From Dehalococcoidia bacterium (lineage in GTDB: Bacteria > Chloroflexota > Dehalococcoidia > GIF9 > AB-539-J10), in contig JAUWYX010000004.1 in NCBI GenBank assembly GCA_030615625.1, positions 1 to 64,000 on the forward strand: 64,000 nucleotides of DNA, given 5' to 3'. The translations under genes and the position numbers were made by a program. Below are positions 6,727 to 48,059 of the stretch, in pieces (the first letter of the stretch is position 1; every line of letters begins with the position of its first letter). The notes below the pieces were generated by a model, which did no database searches, was not told the origin of the DNA, and was given only the letters and a program-made list of their open reading frames with translations.

Positions 6727-6829
6727 ATAACTAATTTTAACATTATGCCCTTTCTATCGAAACATCCAGTGCTTTCCCCCTTCCTTCACAAAAAAGGGGC
6801 TGGTTAGCTGTGATTTATACAGTTAAGTA

Positions 6830-6877
6830 ACTTTTAGTTTTTGATGGTGGTGAAAAGTTCGTTAGCAAAAATGTTAG
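6830..6877 (+). repeat. array repeat R0, right end only
   Basis: Contains only the terminal part of the array repeat: CTTTTAGTTTTTGATGGTGG, then the GAAAAGTTCGTTAGC and ATGTTAG boundary motif. The tRNA-derived part is missing. It marks the outer (left) edge of the array. Confidence 0.8.
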
Positions 6878-6941
6878 TAAATGGTTACCTTGACTTTAAA
6901 GCTTTGAAAAAATAATATTAGGATAGAAGATGAGTTAGAGA

Positions 6942-8012
6942 ATGAATGAATTATTTGAAAGTTTGCTGCAAAGTGGTGAAATAAGGAAAACTGATTTCAA
7001 AAGAGACCAGTATAGGCTAGACAGCGAATACTTTAAATCAAAATTTGTGAAAGATATTCTTTGCATGGCTAATGCTCCTGGGGATGATGGATATATAGTT
7101 TTGGGTGTAAAAAGTGAGAGGGGAAAACCAGGAGAAGTAGTCGGTATTTCAGGCCATCATGATAGTGCGGACTTAGCAGGAATAGTCAATGGAGTAGTAG
7201 AAGCACCAATTCAGTTTGAATATCATGCTATTAAATATAAAGGCCGGGAATGTGCAATTATACATATTCCTAGTAGCATAGGTCGGCCACACTGGAGCAA
7301 AAGAGACTTTGGTATTTTAAAAAAGCATGTATTCTACACCAGGCGTGCCTCTGGAAATACTGAAGCTTCGATAGAAGAGATTCGGCAAATGTGTATCCAG
7401 ACTATTCGCCTCAGTGATGCTGTAAAACAAAGGGCAAAGTTATCTACTCATGTGACAGATGAATTAGCCACTCTAAATATGGACGAAAGAAAATCTCGAA
7501 TGTATAAGATGCTGAAACATATTAGCCCTAAAATTGGATTAAAAAATTATCGTTCTATTGTTTATAGAGATTTGCCGGAAATAGAGACACGTGGTGCGTT
7601 AATTGGTAGTTATAGTGATAAAGAAAAGCATGAATTCGTGATTTTCATGTATCCGTGGTCAGCTAAAATGCAAGATATCAAATGGTCCCGACTCAGAGTA
7701 GCAAGTATTTTAACGTCAGAATCAATCATTAGATTAAGGAATAAAGAGAAGGTACGATTGAATGTAAGCACTTTAATTCATATAGCTTATAAGAATATAT
7801 ATACAAGTGCGCTAGAAAATTGGTATTACGATTCCAAGAAGTTTACAAATGAGATTAACGAATCTTGGGGAAAAGTAATGATATGGAAGGGATATGTAGG
7901 AGGAGAAGAGAAGCATGAGTTCTTTATGCCAAATGTGTCATCAGAAGAAGAGCTTAAGGAAAGACTCATGCAGTTAATCGAATGGGCAAAGACAAATATA
8001 AAAAACCAATAA
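6942..8012 (+). CDS. AlbA_2/Schlafen-type putative DNA-binding protein
   Basis: A 356-residue protein whose N-terminal 150 residues match the AlbA_2 (formerly AAA_4, Schlafen-like) domain: an acidic/aromatic strand (RKTDFKRDQ), the helix with DILCMANAPGDDGYIVLGV near residues 38-55, then ECAIIHIPSS and a FYTRRASGNTEAS segment. The C-terminal 200 residues are unassigned. AlbA_2 proteins are nucleic-acid-linked and often found in defence or transcription-regulator contexts. It is the only array gene on the plus strand and sits alone in the first cassette. AT-rich codon use contrasts with the GTPase to its left. The start is the first ATG of the frame; a GAG-rich leader is present but the ribosome-binding site is weak. 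Confidence 0.7.
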   Translation: MNELFESLLQSGEIRKTDFKRDQYRLDSEYFKSKFVKDILCMANAPGDDGYIVLGVKSERGKPGEVVGISGHHDSADLAGIVNGVVEAPIQFEYHAIKYKGRECAIIHIPSSIGRPHWSKRDFGILKKHVFYTRRASGNTEASIEEIRQMCIQTIRLSDAVKQRAKLSTHVTDELATLNMDERKSRMYKMLKHISPKIGLKNYRSIVYRDLPEIETRGALIGSYSDKEKHEFVIFMYPWSAKMQDIKWSRLRVASILTSESIIRLRNKEKVRLNVSTLIHIAYKNIYTSALENWYYDSKKFTNEINESWGKVMIWKGYVGGEEKHEFFMPNVSSEEELKERLMQLIEWAKTNIKNQ

Positions 8013-8080
8013 AGCTATAATTCGATAGGATACGACAGGCTACAAAGTCTGTTTTTATTTATAGTAATTTGAAAGAGGTC

Positions 8081-8278
8081 TTGACAATTGATTTAGCTGG
8101 TAGGCCGTACAGGATTCGAACCTGTGACACCCTGATTAAAAGATACAAAAGGTATGTCCCTGAGCGTGGAAAGAAGTAATTCCTGATACCTTTCTATTGG
8201 CGATTTAGCTTCAGGTGGTGCTGTTTAGTACCATTTTGTTGTTTACGGTGGTGAAAAGTTCGTTAGCAAAAATGTTAG
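8081..8278 (+). repeat. array repeat R1 with tRNA-Lys 3' half
   Basis: Parts in order: TTGACAATTGATTTAGC; a tRNA-Lys 3' half (about 8097-8142, containing the T arm and the anticodon loop up to ATTAAAAG); then ATACAAAAGGTATGTC, a spacer, GATACCTTT, and the boundary motif at 8247-8278. AAAAGGTAT pairs with ATACCTTT as an inverted repeat. The tRNA similarity stops in the anticodon loop, so no functional tRNA is encoded. Confidence 0.85.
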
Positions 8279-8297
8279 CAAAAGAAGTATGGTGAAG

Positions 8298-8561
8298 CTA
8301 TTTTGATGGGCGTTTTCGTTTTTTACTAGGTTTTTCGGGAAAGTAATCGATGATTTTGCATAGAATGTCAATCATAATTTGTAAGTGCTCATCGTCAATC
8401 ATTAAGCGAACTTGCTCAACGGTGTAATCTGGGGTATTGGTTGTGAGGCTGACATAATTGATGCCATCTTCCCTATGGCTAGCAGTGATGCCATCTACAT
8501 ATAATGTTGGCAAGTCATTTCTTATAATTTCCTTGTCTTTAGAGTTCTTTCTATTTGACAT
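8298..8561 (-). CDS. small unknown protein, third gene of the MqsR/MqsA-like operon
   Basis: A protein of about 87 residues starting MSNRKNSKDKEI, with an N-terminal basic stretch, a beta-rich middle (TLYVDGITASHREDGINYV, then TPDYTVEQVRLMIDDEHLQ) and a basic lysine/arginine tail (KPSKKRKRPSK). I do not recognise the family. I prefer the ATG at 8561, which overlaps the antitoxin stop by 11 bases; an earlier in-frame ATG at 8585 is possible. The overlap indicates translational coupling with the antitoxin gene. Toxin-antitoxin systems with a third chaperone gene exist for MqsRA, but this protein is much shorter than SecB-like chaperones, so that role is not supported by size. Confidence 0.6.
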   Translation of the reverse strand: MSNRKNSKDKEIIRNDLPTLYVDGITASHREDGINYVSLTTNTPDYTVEQVRLMIDDEHLQIMIDILCKIIDYFPEKPSKKRKRPSK

Positions 8562-9099
8562 AAGTATGCTCCTCTTGACTAACAAATTTCTGCTGAAGGA
8601 ATGGGGTCGTAGGCTGTATTATCCTCGTAAGGAGTTTGTGGTACATTGGGATTCTAGCAATTGAAGCGTGCTTCACATATTTTGATGGATGGACGTAGAC
8701 CTGCGGTTGTAAGGGAAAACGGCCATCGCCGGTTCTCTTGAATCTAAGGACAGACTGTTTTAAGTACAAAGTGATTCCCACAAATTTGGTTTGATAAATA
8801 AAGCCGTGTTTAATTCGACGATGTTTATGCAATGCTTGGCGAGAGATACCTAGCATTGAAGCAACTTGGGTAGAGTTGAGAAAATTGGCAAGGGGAAATT
8901 GAATTAGTAGTTCATGAATAAGTCTGTTTCTCTCTGCCTCTATGGCACGAGACATCTCTTCTGTATAAAGAATGTCGTGGCAATCTGTACATTCATAGTA
9001 AGGAATGTTTGGAACCTCAATTTTACCTACGTAGAAGTCGAATATTTGAAGCGAATCAGATTTCACCTCGTAAACACCGCCACATTGGTAACAATTCAT
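8551..9099 (-). CDS. MqsA/YgiT-type antitoxin with unusual C-terminal half
   Basis: A 182-residue protein. The N-terminal zinc-binding domain has CYQC at residues 3-6 and CTDC at residues 37-40, as in MqsA/YgiT. A helix-turn-helix follows at about residues 74-98 (LNSTQVASMLGISRQALHKH) and looks like an excisionase/MerR-type helix-turn-helix rather than the Xre-type domain of E. coli MqsA. About 65 further residues extend the C terminus. It is expected to bind and neutralise the upstream MqsR-like toxin and repress the operon. The toxin gene ends 12 bases upstream, and toxin-first order is also typical of mqsRA. E. coli MqsA is about 131 residues, so the extension is notable. AGGAGG precedes the ATG. 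Confidence 0.75.
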   Translation of the reverse strand: MNCYQCGGVYEVKSDSLQIFDFYVGKIEVPNIPYYECTDCHDILYTEEMSRAIEAERNRLIHELLIQFPLANFLNSTQVASMLGISRQALHKHRRIKHGFIYQTKFVGITLYLKQSVLRFKRTGDGRFPLQPQVYVHPSKYVKHASIARIPMYHKLLTRIIQPTTPFLQQKFVSQEEHTYVK

Positions 9100-9111
9100 C
9101 AGAACCTCCTT

Positions 9112-9462
9112 TTAATAGTACGGTCTGTCTTCTTTAAAACTATTAATAATTAACTTTCCGTCTGCATCATCAATATACAAATGAATGTAAACATTTTCTC
9201 CAAAAAGTCGAGCTTTGTAAACATCAAAAACCCACCAAGCGTTTCTCTTAGAAGGGATTGACTTACAGAAATATGTTTCCTTTAATAGTTTAATGGCCTC
9301 AATTATTCTAGGTCTATTCCATCCAAAATCGGCAAGTGCAGAATCCTCAGCATTCTTTCTGATAAGAAATTCCCCACTATTTATTTTCTGTTTAACATCT
9401 GATAATTGATAAAAACTGCTTGGGCGATGAATATGCTTTCGTTTTTGCTTTCTTTTAGACAT
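9112..9462 (-). CDS. MqsR-like toxin (RelE-fold mRNA interferase)
   Basis: A 116-residue protein that aligns along its length with E. coli MqsR: a basic leader of 12 residues, then SSFYQLSDVKQKINSGEF, RIIEAIKLLKETYFCKS, WVFDVYKARLFGENVYIHL and LIINSFKED. Established catalytic or essential MqsR residues are K56, Q68, Y81 and K96. Here the equivalents appear to be K67, F79 (changed), Y92 and K110. It should cleave mRNA independently of or with the ribosome and cause growth arrest unless bound by the antitoxin. It is the first gene of a three-gene minus-strand operon filling cassette 2. The substitution at the Q68 position could alter activity. Confidence 0.8.
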   Translation of the reverse strand: MSKRKQKRKHIHRPSSFYQLSDVKQKINSGEFLIRKNAEDSALADFGWNRPRIIEAIKLLKETYFCKSIPSKRNAWWVFDVYKARLFGENVYIHLYIDDADGKLIINSFKEDRPYY

Positions 9463-9593
9463 CTTAAGATAGCATTAAAGTTGACGCATGTCAACCCAGA
9501 TGGTTGTTCACTAATATTAATTTTAACATATTGAAAAAAGCCCCAAAAATTATTTAATAGTAACTAAAATAATAAAAGAGACTTGATTGCGAG

Positions 9594-9826
9594 TATTAAT
9601 GCAATGAATAAATTAGTATTTTTGACTATTGACAATTGATTTAGCTGGTAGGCCGTACGGGATTCGAACCTGTGACACCCTGATTAAAAGATACAAAAGG
9701 TATGTCCCTGAGCGTGAAAAGAGGTAATTCCTGATACCTTTTTATTGGCGATTTAGCTTCGATTTGTACCACTAGGTCACTCTTGGTTTTTCATGGTGGT
9801 GAAAAGTTCGTTAGCAAAAATGTTAG
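9594..9826 (+). repeat. array repeat R2, the longest copy
   Basis: Begins with TATTAATGCAATGAATAAAT, which also occurs (with small changes) next to the complete tRNA-Lys at 12841. It continues through TTGACAATTGATTTAGC, the tRNA-Lys 3' half (about 9646-9690), the 9-bp inverted repeat AAAAGGTAT (9695-9703) / ATACCTTTT (9734-9742), TGTACCACTAGGTCACTC, and the boundary motif at 9795-9826. Two GTTAGCA direct repeats lie within the boundary motif. Confidence 0.88.
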
Positions 9827-9839
9827 CAGAACAACGGTG

Positions 9840-11078
9840 CTAGGTAATGCGCTCAGTGGCAATTAATCCTATTAGCGCTTCGCAAGCATTGAGATACATC
9901 CTTGTTGTGGAGATTTTAGGTTTCTTGCCACTGTGAGTTTCTGCACTTAACTTTGCATACATTGCATCAATTGCTGCTGCCATACCATTGATAAAAGTCA
10001 AAGTAGATTCGCTGGGAAGAGGTGACGGTCCTGCAAGTGTATAACGAATTCTCATTGCTCGAGTTACCGCAGATCCCTCCTTTGGCTTTTGGTACCAGGG
10101 AGAAGCTTGAATTTGAGATACTGGAGCCAACTTGTCTAATAGTTGCCTCAAAACCTCTCGCATACTATTCGAAGCTTGTGAAAGTGAGTCTGGTAAGTTA
10201 CTTTCTAATACCTGCCAAGCTCCTACTCGTTTTGATTCAAGTTCTGGGTCAATGCCTTCTAGGAAGCTCTGTATTAGAGCAACGGTGGGTGTTACGGCTG
10301 TTAATTGAGTAGGTGGTGGTGGTGTGGTCTTGGTAGAATCATCTTTTATAGGGCTTGTTTTTATTGCCTCAGAAGTGTTGTGGATTGGCTTAGATTTCTG
10401 AACGGGTGTGGTGCGTCCAAAAACTGATTCGAAAATATCACCGTAACCGGAAAATGCAGCTACCGATTTCTGCTGTGTTATAAGACTGTTAAGTTGACCA
10501 GTCAGATAAATGATACTGTCTTGGTCTTGGTCCATTAAAGCTAAGCCAAGTCGAGAAACCAGTTTATCTATAGCTGCATAATCTGATGTCTTGGTATTTT
10601 CTTTATTTAAAATCAACTGTGCTTCAGCAATAGCAGAATTAGCTCCATCAGTTACAGCATTAATCCCTGCGTCCTTAAGCGCTTTCGTAATAAGCTCGTC
10701 GGTTAAGACTAAGCCCTTATTATCAAATTTTTCCTCAATATGGGTATTAGATTTTGTTTCGGATGCTTTAACAGTGACATTACAGTGTTTGTCAATATGA
10801 AAAGTTAATGAGACCTGCGGAATACCAATAGGTTGCGGACGAATTTCAGAGAGTAGAAATTTCCCAATAAATAGATTGTATTTTGAAAGTGGTCTTTCGC
10901 CCCAAGAAATACTAATCTCTACTGATGGCTGATTATCACTAGCAGTGGAGAGGACTTGACTTCTCTTAGCAGGTAAAGGAGTACCTCTCCTGACAATTGG
11001 AGTAGCAATACCTCCAAGAGTTTCTATAGATAAGGTAAGAGGAAGGAAATCATAAATAATGGGTTCTTCTTTGGTCAT
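9840..11078 (-). CDS. orphan DnaK (Hsp70) substrate-binding domain fused to an unknown C-terminal domain
   Basis: A 412-residue protein. Residues 9-107 follow the beta-sandwich substrate-binding domain of DnaK: PLTLSIETLGG (DnaK PLSLGIETMGG), an LPAKRSQVLSTASDNQ segment (DnaK IPTKHSQVFSTAEDNQ), then SWGER, IPQVSLTFHID and VTVKASE. Residues about 124-210 are helical, like the DnaK lid. The entire N-terminal ATPase domain is absent. A short GYGDIFESVFG segment and a proline/threonine linker (about 215-262) lead to a helical domain (262-412) with SMREVLRQLLDKLAP that I cannot assign. It may recognise unfolded or phage proteins without ATP cycling. It sits alone in cassette 3, so a partner ATPase in trans is possible but not seen. 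Confidence 0.75.
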   Translation of the reverse strand: MTKEEPIIYDFLPLTLSIETLGGIATPIVRRGTPLPAKRSQVLSTASDNQPSVEISISWGERPLSKYNLFIGKFLLSEIRPQPIGIPQVSLTFHIDKHCNVTVKASETKSNTHIEEKFDNKGLVLTDELITKALKDAGINAVTDGANSAIAEAQLILNKENTKTSDYAAIDKLVSRLGLALMDQDQDSIIYLTGQLNSLITQQKSVAAFSGYGDIFESVFGRTTPVQKSKPIHNTSEAIKTSPIKDDSTKTTPPPPTQLTAVTPTVALIQSFLEGIDPELESKRVGAWQVLESNLPDSLSQASNSMREVLRQLLDKLAPVSQIQASPWYQKPKEGSAVTRAMRIRYTLAGPSPLPSESTLTFINGMAAAIDAMYAKLSAETHSGKKPKISTTRMYLNACEALIGLIATERIT

Positions 11079-11153
11079 ATCTAAACTCAGTGTAAATGCC
11101 TATATTCTTATTAAGTTCATTATAGCACTGCTAACTTGGACAAGCCAAAACGA

Positions 11154-11293
11154 AAAGATACAAAAGGTATGTCGCTGAGCGTGAAAAGAGGTAATTCATG
11201 ATACCTTTTTATTTGCGATTTAGCGTTGACTTGTACCGCTAGGTCACTCTTAGTTTTTCGTGGTGGTGGAAAGTTCGTTAGCAAAAATGTTAG
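11154..11293 (+). repeat. array repeat R3, lacking most of the tRNA part
   Basis: Starts at AAAAGATACAAAAGGTATG, exactly where R1 and R2 leave the tRNA sequence (only AAAAG remains). It continues through GATACCTTTTTATTTGCG, TGTACCGCTAGGTCACTC and the boundary motif at 11262-11293. The tRNA-derived half seems to have been deleted or never acquired. Confidence 0.82.
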
Positions 11294-11306
11294 CAGAAAA
11301 TATCAT

Positions 11307-12782
11307 TTAGTAATATTCTCTTCTCTCATCTTCAGATGGAGTATTATTTATAGGAAAATCCTTTCTCTTAGCAAGTATAATTTCTTTTTGATGTTTTTCC
11401 ATGATAAAATCGCGAGCTGCAGCTGCACCAGTAGTGTGGCTAGATGCCAATAAGAATCCTTTATTTATATTACCCATATCCATATAAGCAAAGAGCTGAT
11501 AAACATCAAGACCATCAGCTTGATCTCTTTTAATTTCCCATGCTTCGCCATCTGCTAGCACATCTATAGAACCAGCCAGGCCTTCGATGGTATATTCAGT
11601 CTTTACGTCATTTTTTTTACTGACGGGGTTATTTTCAAGCCAGTTCTTCAACCGGTCTCTTAGAAGTCTTTCAGGAATTTCGGCTGGATATCTCTTTAAT
11701 CTAAGATATCCTTTTTCCTCATCACCACCTTGTCCTTGTAGAATATCTTTTACTTTATTAATACAGTGAATAAAATGGTCATCCATTATGATAGAATTCT
11801 TAGTTATAGCTGTAGTGAATCCTTCGAGGAGATTTATCTCGCCTCTAACGAGATTGTAGTCATTGTGCCTGACGTTTACAATACCTAGTTCAGATAATTG
11901 ATGAAACAAAACAACGCGATCATAAAGAAGTACATCTAGGCCTTGTTTTGATAGCGATACAGCATAAGGATGGTAATGAGGCAAAGGATTAATTCCAAGG
12001 TCTTTTAATTCATTTTCTGTGGGAGCGTAACCGAATGTTAATTCAGCTTTCCAACCAGGTCCGGAAATCCTCCTATTTTCTATGACTGGTTTATTAGTTC
12101 TATTTGAAGGATGAAAATAATAAGGTTTTATTTCAATAATATCCCAAGAATATAGAACATCACCAGTTTTAGTGTTTCTTGAAAATAGATTGATTTCGGC
12201 GAGTCTATTTGCTGGCCTTAAAAATCTCCTATAACGTGCACCTAAATATGGAACTAAAGTCATTGTAATGGATTGTGGGTTAACATTCACGATAGGTTTA
12301 ATATTTTCTATACATATCTCGGTTCCTGATATATTGTTAAAATCACAACAATAACATTCTAATTCACCATATCTAAGTTCTCTAACAACTCGTGCTTGAG
12401 AATCAGTGGTGGTTTTCGTAGCTAAATATTTCAACTTACCTAATCCGGCAATAGCTTGTTTCATGCCAAGGCCATGTTCGTTAAGAGAATTTGCAGACTG
12501 TATTGCTGCAGGTGATAGAGCTAATCCCAGTTTATCTTGAGAAATACCGAAAGCATTATCCTTGATTAATATCATTGTGCAATTGTTCCTATCATCAACC
12601 CAAAATTCGATATTTACATTGAGTCTTAAATCAGGGAGTTTTGCTGCAATAGAATTATCTATCAATTCAGAGATTAAATCCTTGAAGTCATAAGTATTAT
12701 TACCAAGTTCATAGAAAATATTGTCTGAAGGTTTAACAATAACTTTTTCACTATATGGCTGTAACTGATCGACATTTATCAT
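11307..12782 (-). CDS. GHKL ATPase fused to a PD-(D/E)XK-like nuclease domain
   Basis: A 491-residue protein. The N-terminal GHKL/HATPase_c_3 domain shows the N box ELIDNS (39-44), G1 box DNAFGI (75-80) and G2 box EHGLGMK (102-108), as in MORC/Hsp90-type ATPases. A transducer-like middle region follows. Near the C terminus, GSIDVLADGEAWEIKRD with D407, E416 and K418, then DVYQL (Q429), matches the D...ExK...Q spacing of PD-(D/E)XK nucleases. An ATP-gated clamp coupled to DNA cleavage is the natural reading, which suggests an anti-phage or plasmid role; this is inference. It is the only gene of cassette 4, next to the complete tRNA-Lys, with AT-rich codon use. Confidence 0.78.
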   Translation of the reverse strand: MINVDQLQPYSEKVIVKPSDNIFYELGNNTYDFKDLISELIDNSIAAKLPDLRLNVNIEFWVDDRNNCTMILIKDNAFGISQDKLGLALSPAAIQSANSLNEHGLGMKQAIAGLGKLKYLATKTTTDSQARVVRELRYGELECYCCDFNNISGTEICIENIKPIVNVNPQSITMTLVPYLGARYRRFLRPANRLAEINLFSRNTKTGDVLYSWDIIEIKPYYFHPSNRTNKPVIENRRISGPGWKAELTFGYAPTENELKDLGINPLPHYHPYAVSLSKQGLDVLLYDRVVLFHQLSELGIVNVRHNDYNLVRGEINLLEGFTTAITKNSIIMDDHFIHCINKVKDILQGQGGDEEKGYLRLKRYPAEIPERLLRDRLKNWLENNPVSKKNDVKTEYTIEGLAGSIDVLADGEAWEIKRDQADGLDVYQLFAYMDMGNINKGFLLASSHTTGAAAARDFIMEKHQKEIILAKRKDFPINNTPSEDERREYY

Positions 12783-12840
12783 TTTTAGGACTCCTAAATG
12801 TTTGTTAGAAGATTTTTCTATAATCTACACCTTTTTCATA

Positions 12841-12893
12841 TATTAATGCAATGATTAAAATTGGTATTTTTGACTATTGAAAATTGATTTAGC
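12841..12893 (+). repeat. array repeat R4 flank next to tRNA-Lys
   Basis: The segment TATTAATGCAATGATTAAAA to AAATTGATTTAGC matches the same part of R2 (9594-9645) with a few substitutions and leads straight into the 3' end of the complete tRNA-Lys. This ties the intact tRNA to the array repeats. Confidence 0.8.
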
Positions 12894-12969
12894 TGGTAGG
12901 CCGTACAGTGTTCGAACCTGCGACACCCTGATTAAAAGTCAGGTGCTCTACCAACTGAGCTAACGGCCC
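12894..12969 (-). tRNA. tRNA-Lys (anticodon TTT), array-side copy with a T-arm mismatch
   Basis: The acceptor stem GGGCCGT/ACGGCCT, anticodon stem CCTGA/TCAGG with loop CTTTTAA, and encoded CCA are intact. The T stem reads GCAGG/ACTGT, so the normally invariant G53-C61 pair is G-A. The second tRNA-Lys at 47984-48059 has the expected C. The altered 3' part may have come from an integrated element. It may be poorly functional. Confidence 0.85.
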
Positions 12970-12974
12970 CCGGC

Positions 12975-13075
12975 CGAGGTTGCTTCGGCTGCCTAAAGTC
13001 AGCCTCGCAACGACAGAGGGGGCTGCCTCGCAATCTTTTGTCGCGCAATCACCCAATAAATTGGGCAACTCTTTC
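12975..13075. repeat. dispersed REP-like repeat, copy 1
   Basis: Short GC-rich palindromic pieces with the words GCTTCGGC, CCTCGCAACGACA and GTCGCGCAATC, followed by CCCAATAAATT, resemble the sequence at 28738-28880 and, more weakly, 39335-39450. It lies between tRNA-Lys and the Fe-S gene. Such words are common in dispersed intergenic repeats of many bacterial genomes. Confidence 0.6.
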
Positions 13076-13165
13076 CCTTCCTTCACAAAAACCAAAGGAG
13101 GAAGATGATATAATGTGCGCTAACATTTTAGAAAAACTAGACTATTACTACAAAGGAGGGCAAAA

Positions 13166-16121: not shown

Positions 16122-16238
16122 GCCGTACAGGATTCGAACCTGTGACACCCTGATAAAAAGTTCGGGAAGAAAAAAATAGATACAAAAGCAGATGAAATGA
16201 GCCATTTTGACACCCTGATTAGGGCTGACACCCTGATT
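16122..16238 (+). repeat. tRNA-Lys-derived repeat cluster (R6) beside the recombinase
   Basis: A tRNA-Lys 3' fragment (GCCGTACAGGATTCGAACCT onward, 16122-16155) is followed by two more copies of its core TGACACCCTGAT at 16208-16219 and 16226-16237; the first copy is at 16143-16154. Remnants AGTTCG and ATACAAAAG of the array repeat also occur. It may be an attachment region or recombinase binding region. Confidence 0.65.
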
Positions 16239-16297: not shown

Positions 16298-17281
16298 ATG
16301 TCAACTCATATGCACAACCAGGAGAAGGCAAACACCTTATCTGAACTCATAGACTACTACGAAGTTTGCAACAGAGCTGAAGGCAAAAGCTACAGAACAA
16401 TAGGCTGGTATTCTGCAAACCTAAAGCGTTTTCGTAGCTACCTGAAAGGCAGGCACCTCTCAGAATCATTAGATACCATCGACAAAAAAGTGCTCCGCGA
16501 ATATGTACTCTATCTGCTCAAAAGGAATAGATTCGAGAATCACCCTTACGTCCCACTCAGGACAGAGCCATTGTCGGCCGCGACGGTCCACGGTCATGTT
16601 AGAACCCTGCGGGCGTTCTTCAGTTGGCTTGTAGCTGAAGGCTTGACTGAAGAGAATATTGCCAAGGATTTGAAACCACCCAAGCTGGTCAAGAAGGCGG
16701 TATCTACATTATCGGACGAGGAAATAATCGCCATAGTCCACACACTGAACCCTAACAATCATTGTGAGGCGAGGAATCTGACAATCTTCATGCTTCTGCT
16801 TGATACCGGGCTCAGGATAGGGGAACTTGTTAGCCTTAAGATGCAAGATATTCACATCAACGAGGCATTCGTAAAGGTAATGGGCAAGGGCAAAAAGGAG
16901 CGAATCGTGCCTATCGGAAACAACGCACAGAAGGCATTACAGCGGTATCTCTTCCGTTACAGGACCAGACCCGCGCATGCGGGGATTGAAAATGTTTTTC
17001 TGTCAGTACATGGCACTCCCTTAACTGAGAACAACATGCGACTGATGTTTGCCCGGTTAGGGCAGAGATCGGGAGTCCATCGACTTCATGCCCACCTTTG
17101 CCGGCATACTTTTGCTACAAGGTTCCTAACTAATGGTGGTGATGTCTTCACCCTGCAGCGAATACTTGGGCACTCCACATTGGAGATGGTAAGACACTAT
17201 GTGAATTTGGCATCAAACGACGTTATTATCAAGCATCAGAGGTGTTCGCCGTTGGACCGCTTGAATCTACATAGAGCCTAG
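16298..17281 (+). CDS. tyrosine recombinase/integrase (XerC/D-like)
   Basis: A 327-residue recombinase with a core-binding SAM-like domain (about 12-120) and catalytic domain (about 135-310). The catalytic set is complete: R173 (TGLRIGELVSL), a lysine near 199-200 (GKGKKER), H266-x-x-R269 (HAHLCRHTFATRF), H292 (LGHSTLEMV) and the nucleophile Y301 (RHYV). It should cut and rejoin DNA at short core sites through a 3'-phosphotyrosine link. GAGGAGG is upstream of the ATG. It lies 3.3 kb to the right of the tRNA-Lys array, with three copies of the tRNA-derived core just upstream, so it is a candidate to act on the array in trans. No phage or plasmid structural genes accompany it. Confidence 0.9.
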   Translation: MSTHMHNQEKANTLSELIDYYEVCNRAEGKSYRTIGWYSANLKRFRSYLKGRHLSESLDTIDKKVLREYVLYLLKRNRFENHPYVPLRTEPLSAATVHGHVRTLRAFFSWLVAEGLTEENIAKDLKPPKLVKKAVSTLSDEEIIAIVHTLNPNNHCEARNLTIFMLLLDTGLRIGELVSLKMQDIHINEAFVKVMGKGKKERIVPIGNNAQKALQRYLFRYRTRPAHAGIENVFLSVHGTPLTENNMRLMFARLGQRSGVHRLHAHLCRHTFATRFLTNGGDVFTLQRILGHSTLEMVRHYVNLASNDVIIKHQRCSPLDRLNLHRA

Positions 17282-17429: not shown

Positions 17430-19646
17430 TCAGTGTTTTTTCCGGGCAGCTCTTCTTCGGCCTTGCCTTTCTGTCCGGGCAGCTCTCCTTCTACGCACGA
17501 AGAAAATCGCCAGTCCCACTGCCACCACCACTGCTGCTATAATCCCGCCGATTAGCAGCCAGTTGACCGCAAAGTTGGCGGTTATGGCGTAGTCGCCATG
17601 CATGGCAATAATGGTTGTGGCGGCGTTCACATTGGCGATGGTGTCCACATCACCGGTCCACTTGACAAGGCGGTAGCCTTTTTCGGGCCTGGCAACTAGG
17701 CGCACCACCGTCCCGGCATTATAGGTGAACACCCCCTCGCCAGGGGTGGTGACGGAACCATTGGGAGTGCTGGAGATGGTTAGCGTATACTCGACAATTC
17801 CCAGATTCCATTTGGCAAGTTCGATATCAGGGCCTGCGGCGACTACAGTGCCATCGGCCTTAAGTCCTACCGTGTGATAGCTGCCCGCGGCGACCCCGGT
17901 GATGTCTGTCCAGCTGCTGATGACATACTGCCCACCGGCGTCGATTCCCACGGCGACCAGGGTGCCGTCGGCTTTAAGCCCCACTGTTTGATAGTTGCCT
18001 GTGATGATCTGAGTGATATCTGTCCAGTCGCTGATAGCACGCTGCCCATAGGAATTATCTCCCGTAGCTACCACGGTCCTGTCCGCCTTAAGACCCACTG
18101 TGTTATAGCCACTTGCAGCGACTTGGGTAATGTCCGTCCAGCTGCTGACAGCGCACTGCCCATACTCATTGTCTCCCACGGCGACCACGGTGCCGTCGTT
18201 CTTAAGGCCCACTGTGTGAGCATAACCTGCGGCGACCTGGGTGATGTCCATCCAGTTCCCCACATCACATTGCTCGAATTGGTTATCTCCCACGGCGACC
18301 ACGGTACTGTCGGCCTTAAGGCCCACCGTGTGCCCGGAGCCTGCGGCGACCCCGATGATGTCCGTCCAGTTGCTTACATTGCACTGCCCGTAGTCATTCC
18401 ATCCCACGGCGAACACGGTACCGTTGGCTTTAAGCCCCAATGTGTGACCATAACCCGCGGCGACCTGGGTGATGTCCGTCCAGTTGCCGACATTGCATTG
18501 CCCGTAGGCATTCCATCCCACGGCGGCCACAGTGCCCTCGGCCTTAAGCCCTACCGTGTGATAGTAGCCTGCAGCGACCCTGATGATATCCGTCCAGCTC
18601 CCGGTATTGCACTGCCCGTAGTGGCTTCTTCCCACAGCGACCACGGTGCCGTCGTTCTTAAGCCCCACAGTGTGCCAGCCGCCCGTGGCAACCTGGATGA
18701 TATCCGTCCAGCCCCCCACATTGCACTGCCCGTGGTTGTTGTATCCCACAGCGACTACAGTGCCGTCCTCCTTAAGCCCCACCGTGTGGTCATAGCCTGC
18801 GGCGACCTGTATAATATCCCTCCAGTCCCCGACATCGCCCTCCCCAGAGCTGTTCCCTCCCACGGCGACCACGGTGCCATCTGCCCTAAGTCCTACCGTG
18901 TGGTAGCTGCCTGCGGCTACCTGTATTATGTCCCTCCAATCGCCGACGTCACTCTGCCCGAGGCCCTTATATCCCACGGCGACCACGGTACCGTCGGCCT
19001 TGAGCCCAACCGTGTGACCATAACCTGCGGCGACTTGGATAATGTTCGTCCAGCTGCTGACATCACTATGCCCGAGACTGTATCCCACTGCGACCACAGT
19101 ACCGTCTGCCTTAAGCCCCAACGTCTGGTCATAGCCTGCGGCGACCTGGGTGATATCCGTCCAGTTGCTGACATTGCATTTCCCGCCACCGTTGTCTCCC
19201 ACGGCGACCACGGTGCCGTCGGCCCTAAGCCCCACCGTGTGATCGCCGCCGGCGGCGACCTGAATGATATCTGTCCAGCCGCCGACATTGCACTGTCCGA
19301 AGTAGTTGGATCCCACGGCGACTACGGTCCCGTCAGCTTTAAGCCCCACAGTGTGATAGAAGCCTGCGGCGACCATGGGCGTCGCTTGCCCTTGAAGCGT
19401 ATTCAGCGCCATTGCGGAAGCAGGGCTGGAGCTATTTACTGCCGCAATAATAGAACGGTCATCTGGCAGATGCACAGTCGCTGAAGCTCCCACTACCGAA
19501 GCAGGAAGAAGCAAGCTGAAAACCAGGAAGATAGCGAATAGAGTTGTCAAGAGTATCTTTCTATTTTTCGCGAAGGTGCCTATTTTGTATCGACTTAGCT
19601 CGCTTAATATATTCCTTGCTAACACTATTTCCTCCCTGTGATTCAC
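17430..19646 (-). CDS. secreted, membrane-anchored RCC1-type beta-propeller repeat protein
   Basis: A 738-residue surface protein. A long N-terminal export segment (hydrophobic core LLTTLFAIFLVFSLLLPASV) leads to 13 complete and one partial repeats of 38 residues each (pattern VAAGxxHTVGLKADGTVVAV, then a short loop and WTDI). These are of the RCC1/alpha-tubulin-suppressor type; two propellers of about seven blades are plausible. A single divergent InlB-type repeat follows (YTLTISSTPNGSVTTPGEGV). A C-terminal transmembrane helix (LLIGGIIAAVVVAVGLAIFF) and a basic tail (RRRRAARTERQGRRRAARKK) anchor it. It probably binds a surface ligand or partner cell. The 114-bp DNA repeat makes copy-number change by slippage likely. 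A 536-codon opposite frame is an artefact of the repeats. Confidence 0.88.
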   Translation of the reverse strand: MNHREEIVLARNILSELSRYKIGTFAKNRKILLTTLFAIFLVFSLLLPASVVGASATVHLPDDRSIIAAVNSSSPASAMALNTLQGQATPMVAAGFYHTVGLKADGTVVAVGSNYFGQCNVGGWTDIIQVAAGGDHTVGLRADGTVVAVGDNGGGKCNVSNWTDITQVAAGYDQTLGLKADGTVVAVGYSLGHSDVSSWTNIIQVAAGYGHTVGLKADGTVVAVGYKGLGQSDVGDWRDIIQVAAGSYHTVGLRADGTVVAVGGNSSGEGDVGDWRDIIQVAAGYDHTVGLKEDGTVVAVGYNNHGQCNVGGWTDIIQVATGGWHTVGLKNDGTVVAVGRSHYGQCNTGSWTDIIRVAAGYYHTVGLKAEGTVAAVGWNAYGQCNVGNWTDITQVAAGYGHTLGLKANGTVFAVGWNDYGQCNVSNWTDIIGVAAGSGHTVGLKADSTVVAVGDNQFEQCDVGNWMDITQVAAGYAHTVGLKNDGTVVAVGDNEYGQCAVSSWTDITQVAASGYNTVGLKADRTVVATGDNSYGQRAISDWTDITQIITGNYQTVGLKADGTLVAVGIDAGGQYVISSWTDITGVAAGSYHTVGLKADGTVVAAGPDIELAKWNLGIVEYTLTISSTPNGSVTTPGEGVFTYNAGTVVRLVARPEKGYRLVKWTGDVDTIANVNAATTIIAMHGDYAITANFAVNWLLIGGIIAAVVVAVGLAIFFVRRRRAARTERQGRRRAARKKH

Positions 19647-47983: not shown

Positions 47984-48059
47984 TGGTAGGCCGTACAGGA
48001 TTCGAACCTGCGACACCCTGATTAAAAGTCAGGTGCTCTACCAACTGAGCTAACGGCCC
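47984..48059 (-). tRNA. tRNA-Lys (anticodon TTT), intact copy
   Basis: The same sequence as the tRNA at 12894-12969 except two bases in the T arm: here GCAGG/CCTGT closes normally with G53-C61 and loop TTCGAAT. Acceptor, anticodon loop CTTTTAA and encoded CCA are intact. It has its own terminator. This is likely the working tRNA-Lys of the window. Confidence 0.95.

Follow-up and report, generated by a model that had tools for sequence, protein, structure and literature searches.

A predicted GHKL ATPase and PD-(D/E)XK nuclease in one protein, encoded in a repeat-bounded cassette array at a tRNA-Lys gene of a Dehalococcoidia bacterium

What does a protein that joins an ATPase and a putative nuclease in one chain do, and why does its gene lie between repeats beside a tRNA gene? 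This question is raised by an open reading frame in the first 64,000 nucleotides of contig JAUWYX010000004.1 (Dehalococcoidia bacterium, assembly GCA_030615625.1), hereafter called the window. The gene (11307-12782, minus strand) starts with ATG, is present in a single copy in its genome, and encodes 491 aa, with a GHKL and S5-like module within residues 17-363 and a nuclease domain at residues 366-491. The initial annotation described a GHKL ATPase joined to a PD-(D/E)XK-like nuclease, a description backed by the motifs, conservation and predicted fold reported below.

The ATPase module

Residues 32-130 match the Pfam family HATPase_c_3 above its cut-off (E=1e-8). The N, G1 and G2 boxes of GHKL ATPases, including the catalytic glutamate and asparagine, are present in the window protein and in the alignments. 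Ten GHKL positions, E39, D42, D75, G79, G104, G106, K108, T154, K328, and N329, are invariant in a ten-row alignment that includes two remote homologues. The three ATP-binding boxes initially read from the sequence are thus borne out by the Pfam match and by the invariant residues. The full-length predicted model has moderate confidence (mean pLDDT 75.9), with several weak loops. Approximately residues 17-363 of this model superpose on the ATPase module of SMCHD1 (Z 17.7), and on MORC2 and topo VI-B with Z values of about 15. The alignment to the SMCHD1/MORC2 module indicates, at the moderate confidence of the model, a GHKL fold followed by an S5 transducer.

The nuclease domain

The C-terminal half of the protein has no match to any Pfam, PADLOC or NCBIfam model. 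The domain encoded at 11310-11687 (minus strand, residues 366-491) carries E396, D407, E416, K418, Q429, and Y433, the last two forming a QxxxY motif. D407, E416, K418, Q429, and Y433 are invariant in a seven-sequence alignment, whose other members share 46-57% identity with the window protein, and also in every row of the wider ten-row alignment, which adds the remote homologues L006 and L015 (21-23% identity). E396 is invariant in the seven-member alignment and nearly so in the ten-member one. This motif set exceeds chance, since bacteria, archaea and viral contigs all retain it. D407, E416-x-K418 and Q429 had been proposed from their nuclease-like spacing; the numbering was exact, and the residues are invariant in the orthologues of haloarchaeal, clostridial, Priestia and viral-contig origin. 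A combination of D, E-x-K and QxxxY is the layout of RecB/Cas4-like nucleases.

Modelled alone, residues 366-491 reach a mean pLDDT of 93.7 and show the order H-E-E-E-H-E-H-E expected for a PD-(D/E)XK fold, in keeping with the earlier reading and predicting neither a transducer nor a helical domain. Alignment and predicted structure together reveal an alpha-beta3-alpha-beta core bearing the D and E-x-K residues. The top Foldseek match is the EndoMS-DNA complex 5gke (E=1.6e-4; Z 12.2 in VIA, rmsd 2.4 over 103 residues, 22% identity), and the Pyrococcus abyssi repair endonuclease 2vld matches with Z 11.9. The top sequence-profile match in the PDB is a Cas4 protein; it is weak (E=0.069), with the D, E-x-K and QxxxY residues in register. 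We therefore confidently predict a PD-(D/E)XK nuclease domain, with EndoMS/NucS as the closest PDB fold.

Relation to known families

The closest solved fold of the window nuclease is thus EndoMS/NucS, from which it differs by its fusion behind a GHKL ATPase. The Pfam model NucS_C matches one of the seven members, with an E-value (0.0064) that does not reach the cut-off. In a profile comparison, NucS_C (E=0.0011, probability 21%, motifs aligned) ranks ahead of SduA_C (E=0.022), but both match the window nuclease weakly, and the two reference sets are more alike than either is to the window family.

PADLOC gave zero matches for the 491-aa protein, in agreement with the initial statement that it belongs to no named defence system. 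That statement overlooked close known kin, namely paraMORC3 (PMC2292703) and the Shedu type I-D protein VcSduA (PMC12137116). The paraMORC3 proteins contain GHKL, S5 and a C-terminal RE-fold domain with E-D-ExK, and a subset are stand-alone genes (Iyer 2008, PMC2292703). The window protein likewise possesses GHKL, S5 and a C-terminal E-D-ExK nuclease (E396, D407, E416, K418) in one chain; this comparison is one of architecture, and we additionally note the QxxxY motif and the EndoMS-like fold in the window protein.

VcSduA, which has itself been likened to paraMORC3, stops phages and needs both its ATPase and nuclease residues (PMC12137116). The window protein resembles it in combining an N-terminal GHKL ATPase, a clamp-like middle domain and a C-terminal PD-(D/E)XK nuclease in one protein, and in its mobile island setting. 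However, the Shedu signature SduA_C/DUF4263 has no match in the window protein (Pfam, E<=1) or in any of the seven nuclease domains. The window-family profile gives the GHKL-SduA_C protein L124 only 3 bits, whereas the GHKL proteins L002-L004 receive 22-30 bits (all from the phylum). No Shedu entry is among the structure matches listed for the nuclease model, a list that leaves room for a Shedu fold. Based on the unmatched SduA_C, the low L124 score and the weak profile comparison, we regard the window family as a cousin of Shedu and not a member.

Distribution and gene neighbourhoods

Full-length orthologues (45-57% identity) were found on a Priestia plasmid, where the protein is WP_241097392.1, in a Clostridia MAG, an Omnitrophota MAG and two haloarchaea, and on three viral contigs. 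The remote homologues L006 and L015 share the architecture. Few orthologues were found; as each scan used only two peptide patterns, these counts are lower bounds. No near relatives were found in the congeners sampled, and two queries against phage records gave no match. The frame of the Omnitrophota orthologue is broken ahead of the nuclease part, which may reflect an assembly error or decay. A 34-residue piece sharing 79% identity with the N-terminal end of the window protein, apparently a decayed copy, was also observed on a Paraclostridium plasmid (L007, 8001-8102).

A role as DNA repair or mismatch enzyme would be suggested by the match of the nuclease fold to EndoMS and by weak sequence matches of the ATPase to MutL. 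Nevertheless, the sporadic distribution over a plasmid, viral contigs and a mobile cassette, and the absence from congeners, are unlike a housekeeping repair gene, and we regard this role as highly improbable.

Several orthologues adjoin genes related to defence. The Haloarcula orthologue (L011) comes after PglX and BrxHII genes, and L008 is flanked by AbiEi/AbiEii and type I R-M genes. The orthologue L014, on a viral contig or prophage, lies between integrase and repressor genes, after genes for type IV-like and BglII-like endonucleases. Genes for dcm, SNF2 and MutH/Sau3AI are located near the Priestia orthologue (L005). The one neighbour tested at L010 gave no defence match. These neighbourhoods were examined once the hits were known, and carry no formal background rate.

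The same loci bear on whether the window protein is one subunit within a restriction-modification or BREX-like system whose methylase or helicase partner is encoded elsewhere in the genome. PglX and BrxHII ahead of the Haloarcula gene, and dcm and SNF2 near the Priestia gene, are consistent with such a subunit. So are the GHKL relatives L002, L004, L029, and L030 from the phylum, which adjoin genes with Dcm-type methylase motifs. Yet the orthologue loci share no partner gene, the window cassette lacks a methylase, and the nuclease is in the same chain as the ATPase, so that a subunit role appears rather unlikely. A conserved pairing with the adjacent gene for an Hsp70 (DnaK) substrate-binding domain was also considered, and was ruled out because such a neighbour occurs in none of the orthologue loci read.

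A cassette array at tRNA-Lys

The gene had been called part of "one cassette", a term apter than its text explained, as it forms one unit in an array delimited by repeats. Four cassettes make up the array, bounded by repeats at 6804-6877, 8081-8286, 9626-9834, 11153-11298 and 12874-12938. A full repeat consists of the tRNA-Lys 3' half up to the anticodon loop, followed by a conserved tail of about 145 bp ending in TTCGTTAGCAAAAATGTTAGCA. This end sequence has four copies in the window, all at unit borders, with none expected by chance. The repeats at 8081-8286 and 9626-9834 (plus strand) are full. The left edge (6804-6877, plus strand) is a truncated tail about 75 bp from a GTPase gene. Between the GHKL and Hsp70-related cassettes, the tail at 11153-11298 (plus strand) has no recognisable tRNA half. 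The right edge is an intact tRNA-Lys(TTT) gene (12894-12969, minus strand), the 3' half of which lies in the repeat copy at 12874-12938. Part of the target tRNA is thus repeated at the unit borders, as in integrative elements that target tRNA genes. In a consensus folding of the repeat, compensatory changes were found mainly in the tRNA T stem, where they arise because different tRNA genes are copied, and a few were found in a tail hairpin.

The first cassette encodes a 356-aa SLFN AlbA_2 protein (6942-8012, plus strand), in the orientation opposite to the other cassettes. The second (8298-9462, minus strand) encodes an MqsR-like toxin (9112-9462), an MqsA-like HTH protein (8551-9099) and a small ORF (8298-8585). 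The third (9840-11078, minus strand) encodes a 412-aa protein in which an Hsp70 substrate-binding domain (HSP70, 2e-28, profile 385-535) is fused to pP_pnuc_1 (1.3e-17). This protein combines the substrate-binding domain, lacking the ATPase domain, with a pPIWI-associated nuclease; the N-terminus differs in the other pP_pnuc_1 proteins that were read from the class. None of the four cassettes contains a site-specific integrase.

One candidate for the cassette integrase, the tyrosine recombinase encoded at 16298-17281, was rejected because it is of another type, with no Arm domain matched. A tRNA-Lys 3' half (16122-16160) lies beside it, and a second intact tRNA-Lys is located at 47984-48059. 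This suggests a separate island of about 32 kb (16122-48059), and the recombinase may belong to this island on its right. The two tRNA-Lys(TTT) genes, 12894-12969 and 47984-48059, are 97% identical with unlike upstream sequences, and two adjacent bases differ near the T arm. The region 17430-19646 encodes a 738-aa protein, RCC1-like by eye, in which units of the type GLKADGTVVAVG recur many times.

Cargo exchange and probable mobility

The array occupies a variable site. In the congener G699 (C86), the two genes flanking the array in the window, GTPase and CCG, are adjacent, and the segment corresponding to 6785-13103 is missing, as it is in G593 and G694. No tRNA was found at the GTPase/CCG site of these three congeners, so the extra segment of the window includes the tRNA-Lys at 12894. 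The window, G697, G445, G242 and G500 have in common a truncated tail that lies about 75 bp away from the start of the GTPase gene. Beyond it the window has its four cassettes, G697 a SIR2 gene and one gene without assignment, G445 a dGTPase gene and a small ORF that is NDT-like by eye, G242 a small HTH gene, and G500 directly the tRNA-Lys.

Other repeats in the genus adjoin genes for a retron-type RT with an NDT gene, STAND NTPase, PHP-SLFN (Ppl-like) proteins and DUF3800. The SIR2 cargo of the congeners is ThsA-like. Several cargos could not be assigned to a class (L087, 447 aa; L086, 306 aa; L085, 415 aa). This list was drawn from the best repeat matches and is not a census. In the wider class, the end motif occurs in 13 of 328 genomes, against none for the reversed control. 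Of the eight loci read there, most consist of a solo tail next to ordinary genes, one of them directly at tRNA-Lys; the tail is therefore no marker of defence genes by itself. The exact 22-nt tail motif was absent from the viral contigs scanned.

The neighbouring cargos raise the possibility of an abortive-infection effector that cuts host DNA upon infection. A toxin-antitoxin pair is present among the neighbouring cassettes, and some cassette cargos elsewhere, such as retron and SIR2, come from systems known for killing infected cells. The similarly built VcSduA protects at every MOI tested, which is consistent with direct restriction (PMC12137116), and we judge the abortive effect to be quite improbable.

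Judged from their sequences, the ends of the array at tRNA-Lys match those of tyrosine-integrase elements in congeners. Elements of G697 and G699 with the same tail encode an Arm-type tyrosine integrase, the gene end of which overlaps a tRNA, and the G697 element adds genes for a LuxR-type regulator and an ORF2/G2P-type Rep. Such elements, at L086 (7793-11239) and L088 (7114-11426), are probably autonomous, with the LuxR-type regulator and a Rep_ORF2-G2P-like protein matched in L086. The Arm-type integrase of the G697 and G699 elements has no match in the source genome at E<=1e-40. The cassettes are probably reduced derivatives of such integrase elements, moved in trans.

The array resembles the ssrA genomic islands of Dehalococcoides, which are tandem and bounded by direct repeats of the target RNA gene (PMC3146451). 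Those islands use serine recombinases and the ssrA target, and many carry an integration module, whereas the window cassettes measure about 1.3-1.8 kb, lie at tRNA-Lys and have no recombinase inside. Within the open-access literature, we found nothing matching such cassettes. Tentatively, and with somewhat more doubt than belief, we propose an integron-like but non-integron platform in Dehalococcoidia. In it, minimal cassettes, each holding a single defence system and bordered by a tRNA-Lys 3' half with the conserved tail, would stack at one site and be exchanged between species. The tyrosine integrase of an element that also encodes Rep would move them in trans, and the GHKL-EndoMS-type nuclease would be one new cargo. 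The cassette setting is a more surprising part of the locus than the protein architecture.

Predicted function

Anti-phage defence by the window gene is likely, judging from its sequence and setting, because orthologues adjoin defence genes and other cassettes carry defence cargo, and because VcSduA, with the same two-domain logic, restricts phage (PMC12137116). The motifs, the fold, the conservation and the mobile, defence-linked setting rest on sequence and prediction. We consider it fairly probable that the protein is a restriction factor against phage or foreign DNA that acts largely alone.

In MutL, MORC, Hsp90 and related GHKL proteins, the N-terminal dimer is known to close upon ATP binding. 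Two subunits of the window protein would dimerise through the GHKL/S5 module, and ATP binding would close the dimer like a clamp. When foreign DNA is sensed, closure on the DNA would place the two C-terminal EndoMS-like PD-(D/E)XK domains on the duplex, as the EndoMS dimer does, and the positioned domains would cut it.

If the protein restricts phage, GHKL-nuclease immunity would extend beyond Shedu. It would also unite a MORC/MutL-type clamp and an EndoMS-like cutter in one chain, making clamp gating testable in a small protein. Should the platform prove real, its repeats would be a practical bait, and uncharacterised genes between them would be candidates for defence.
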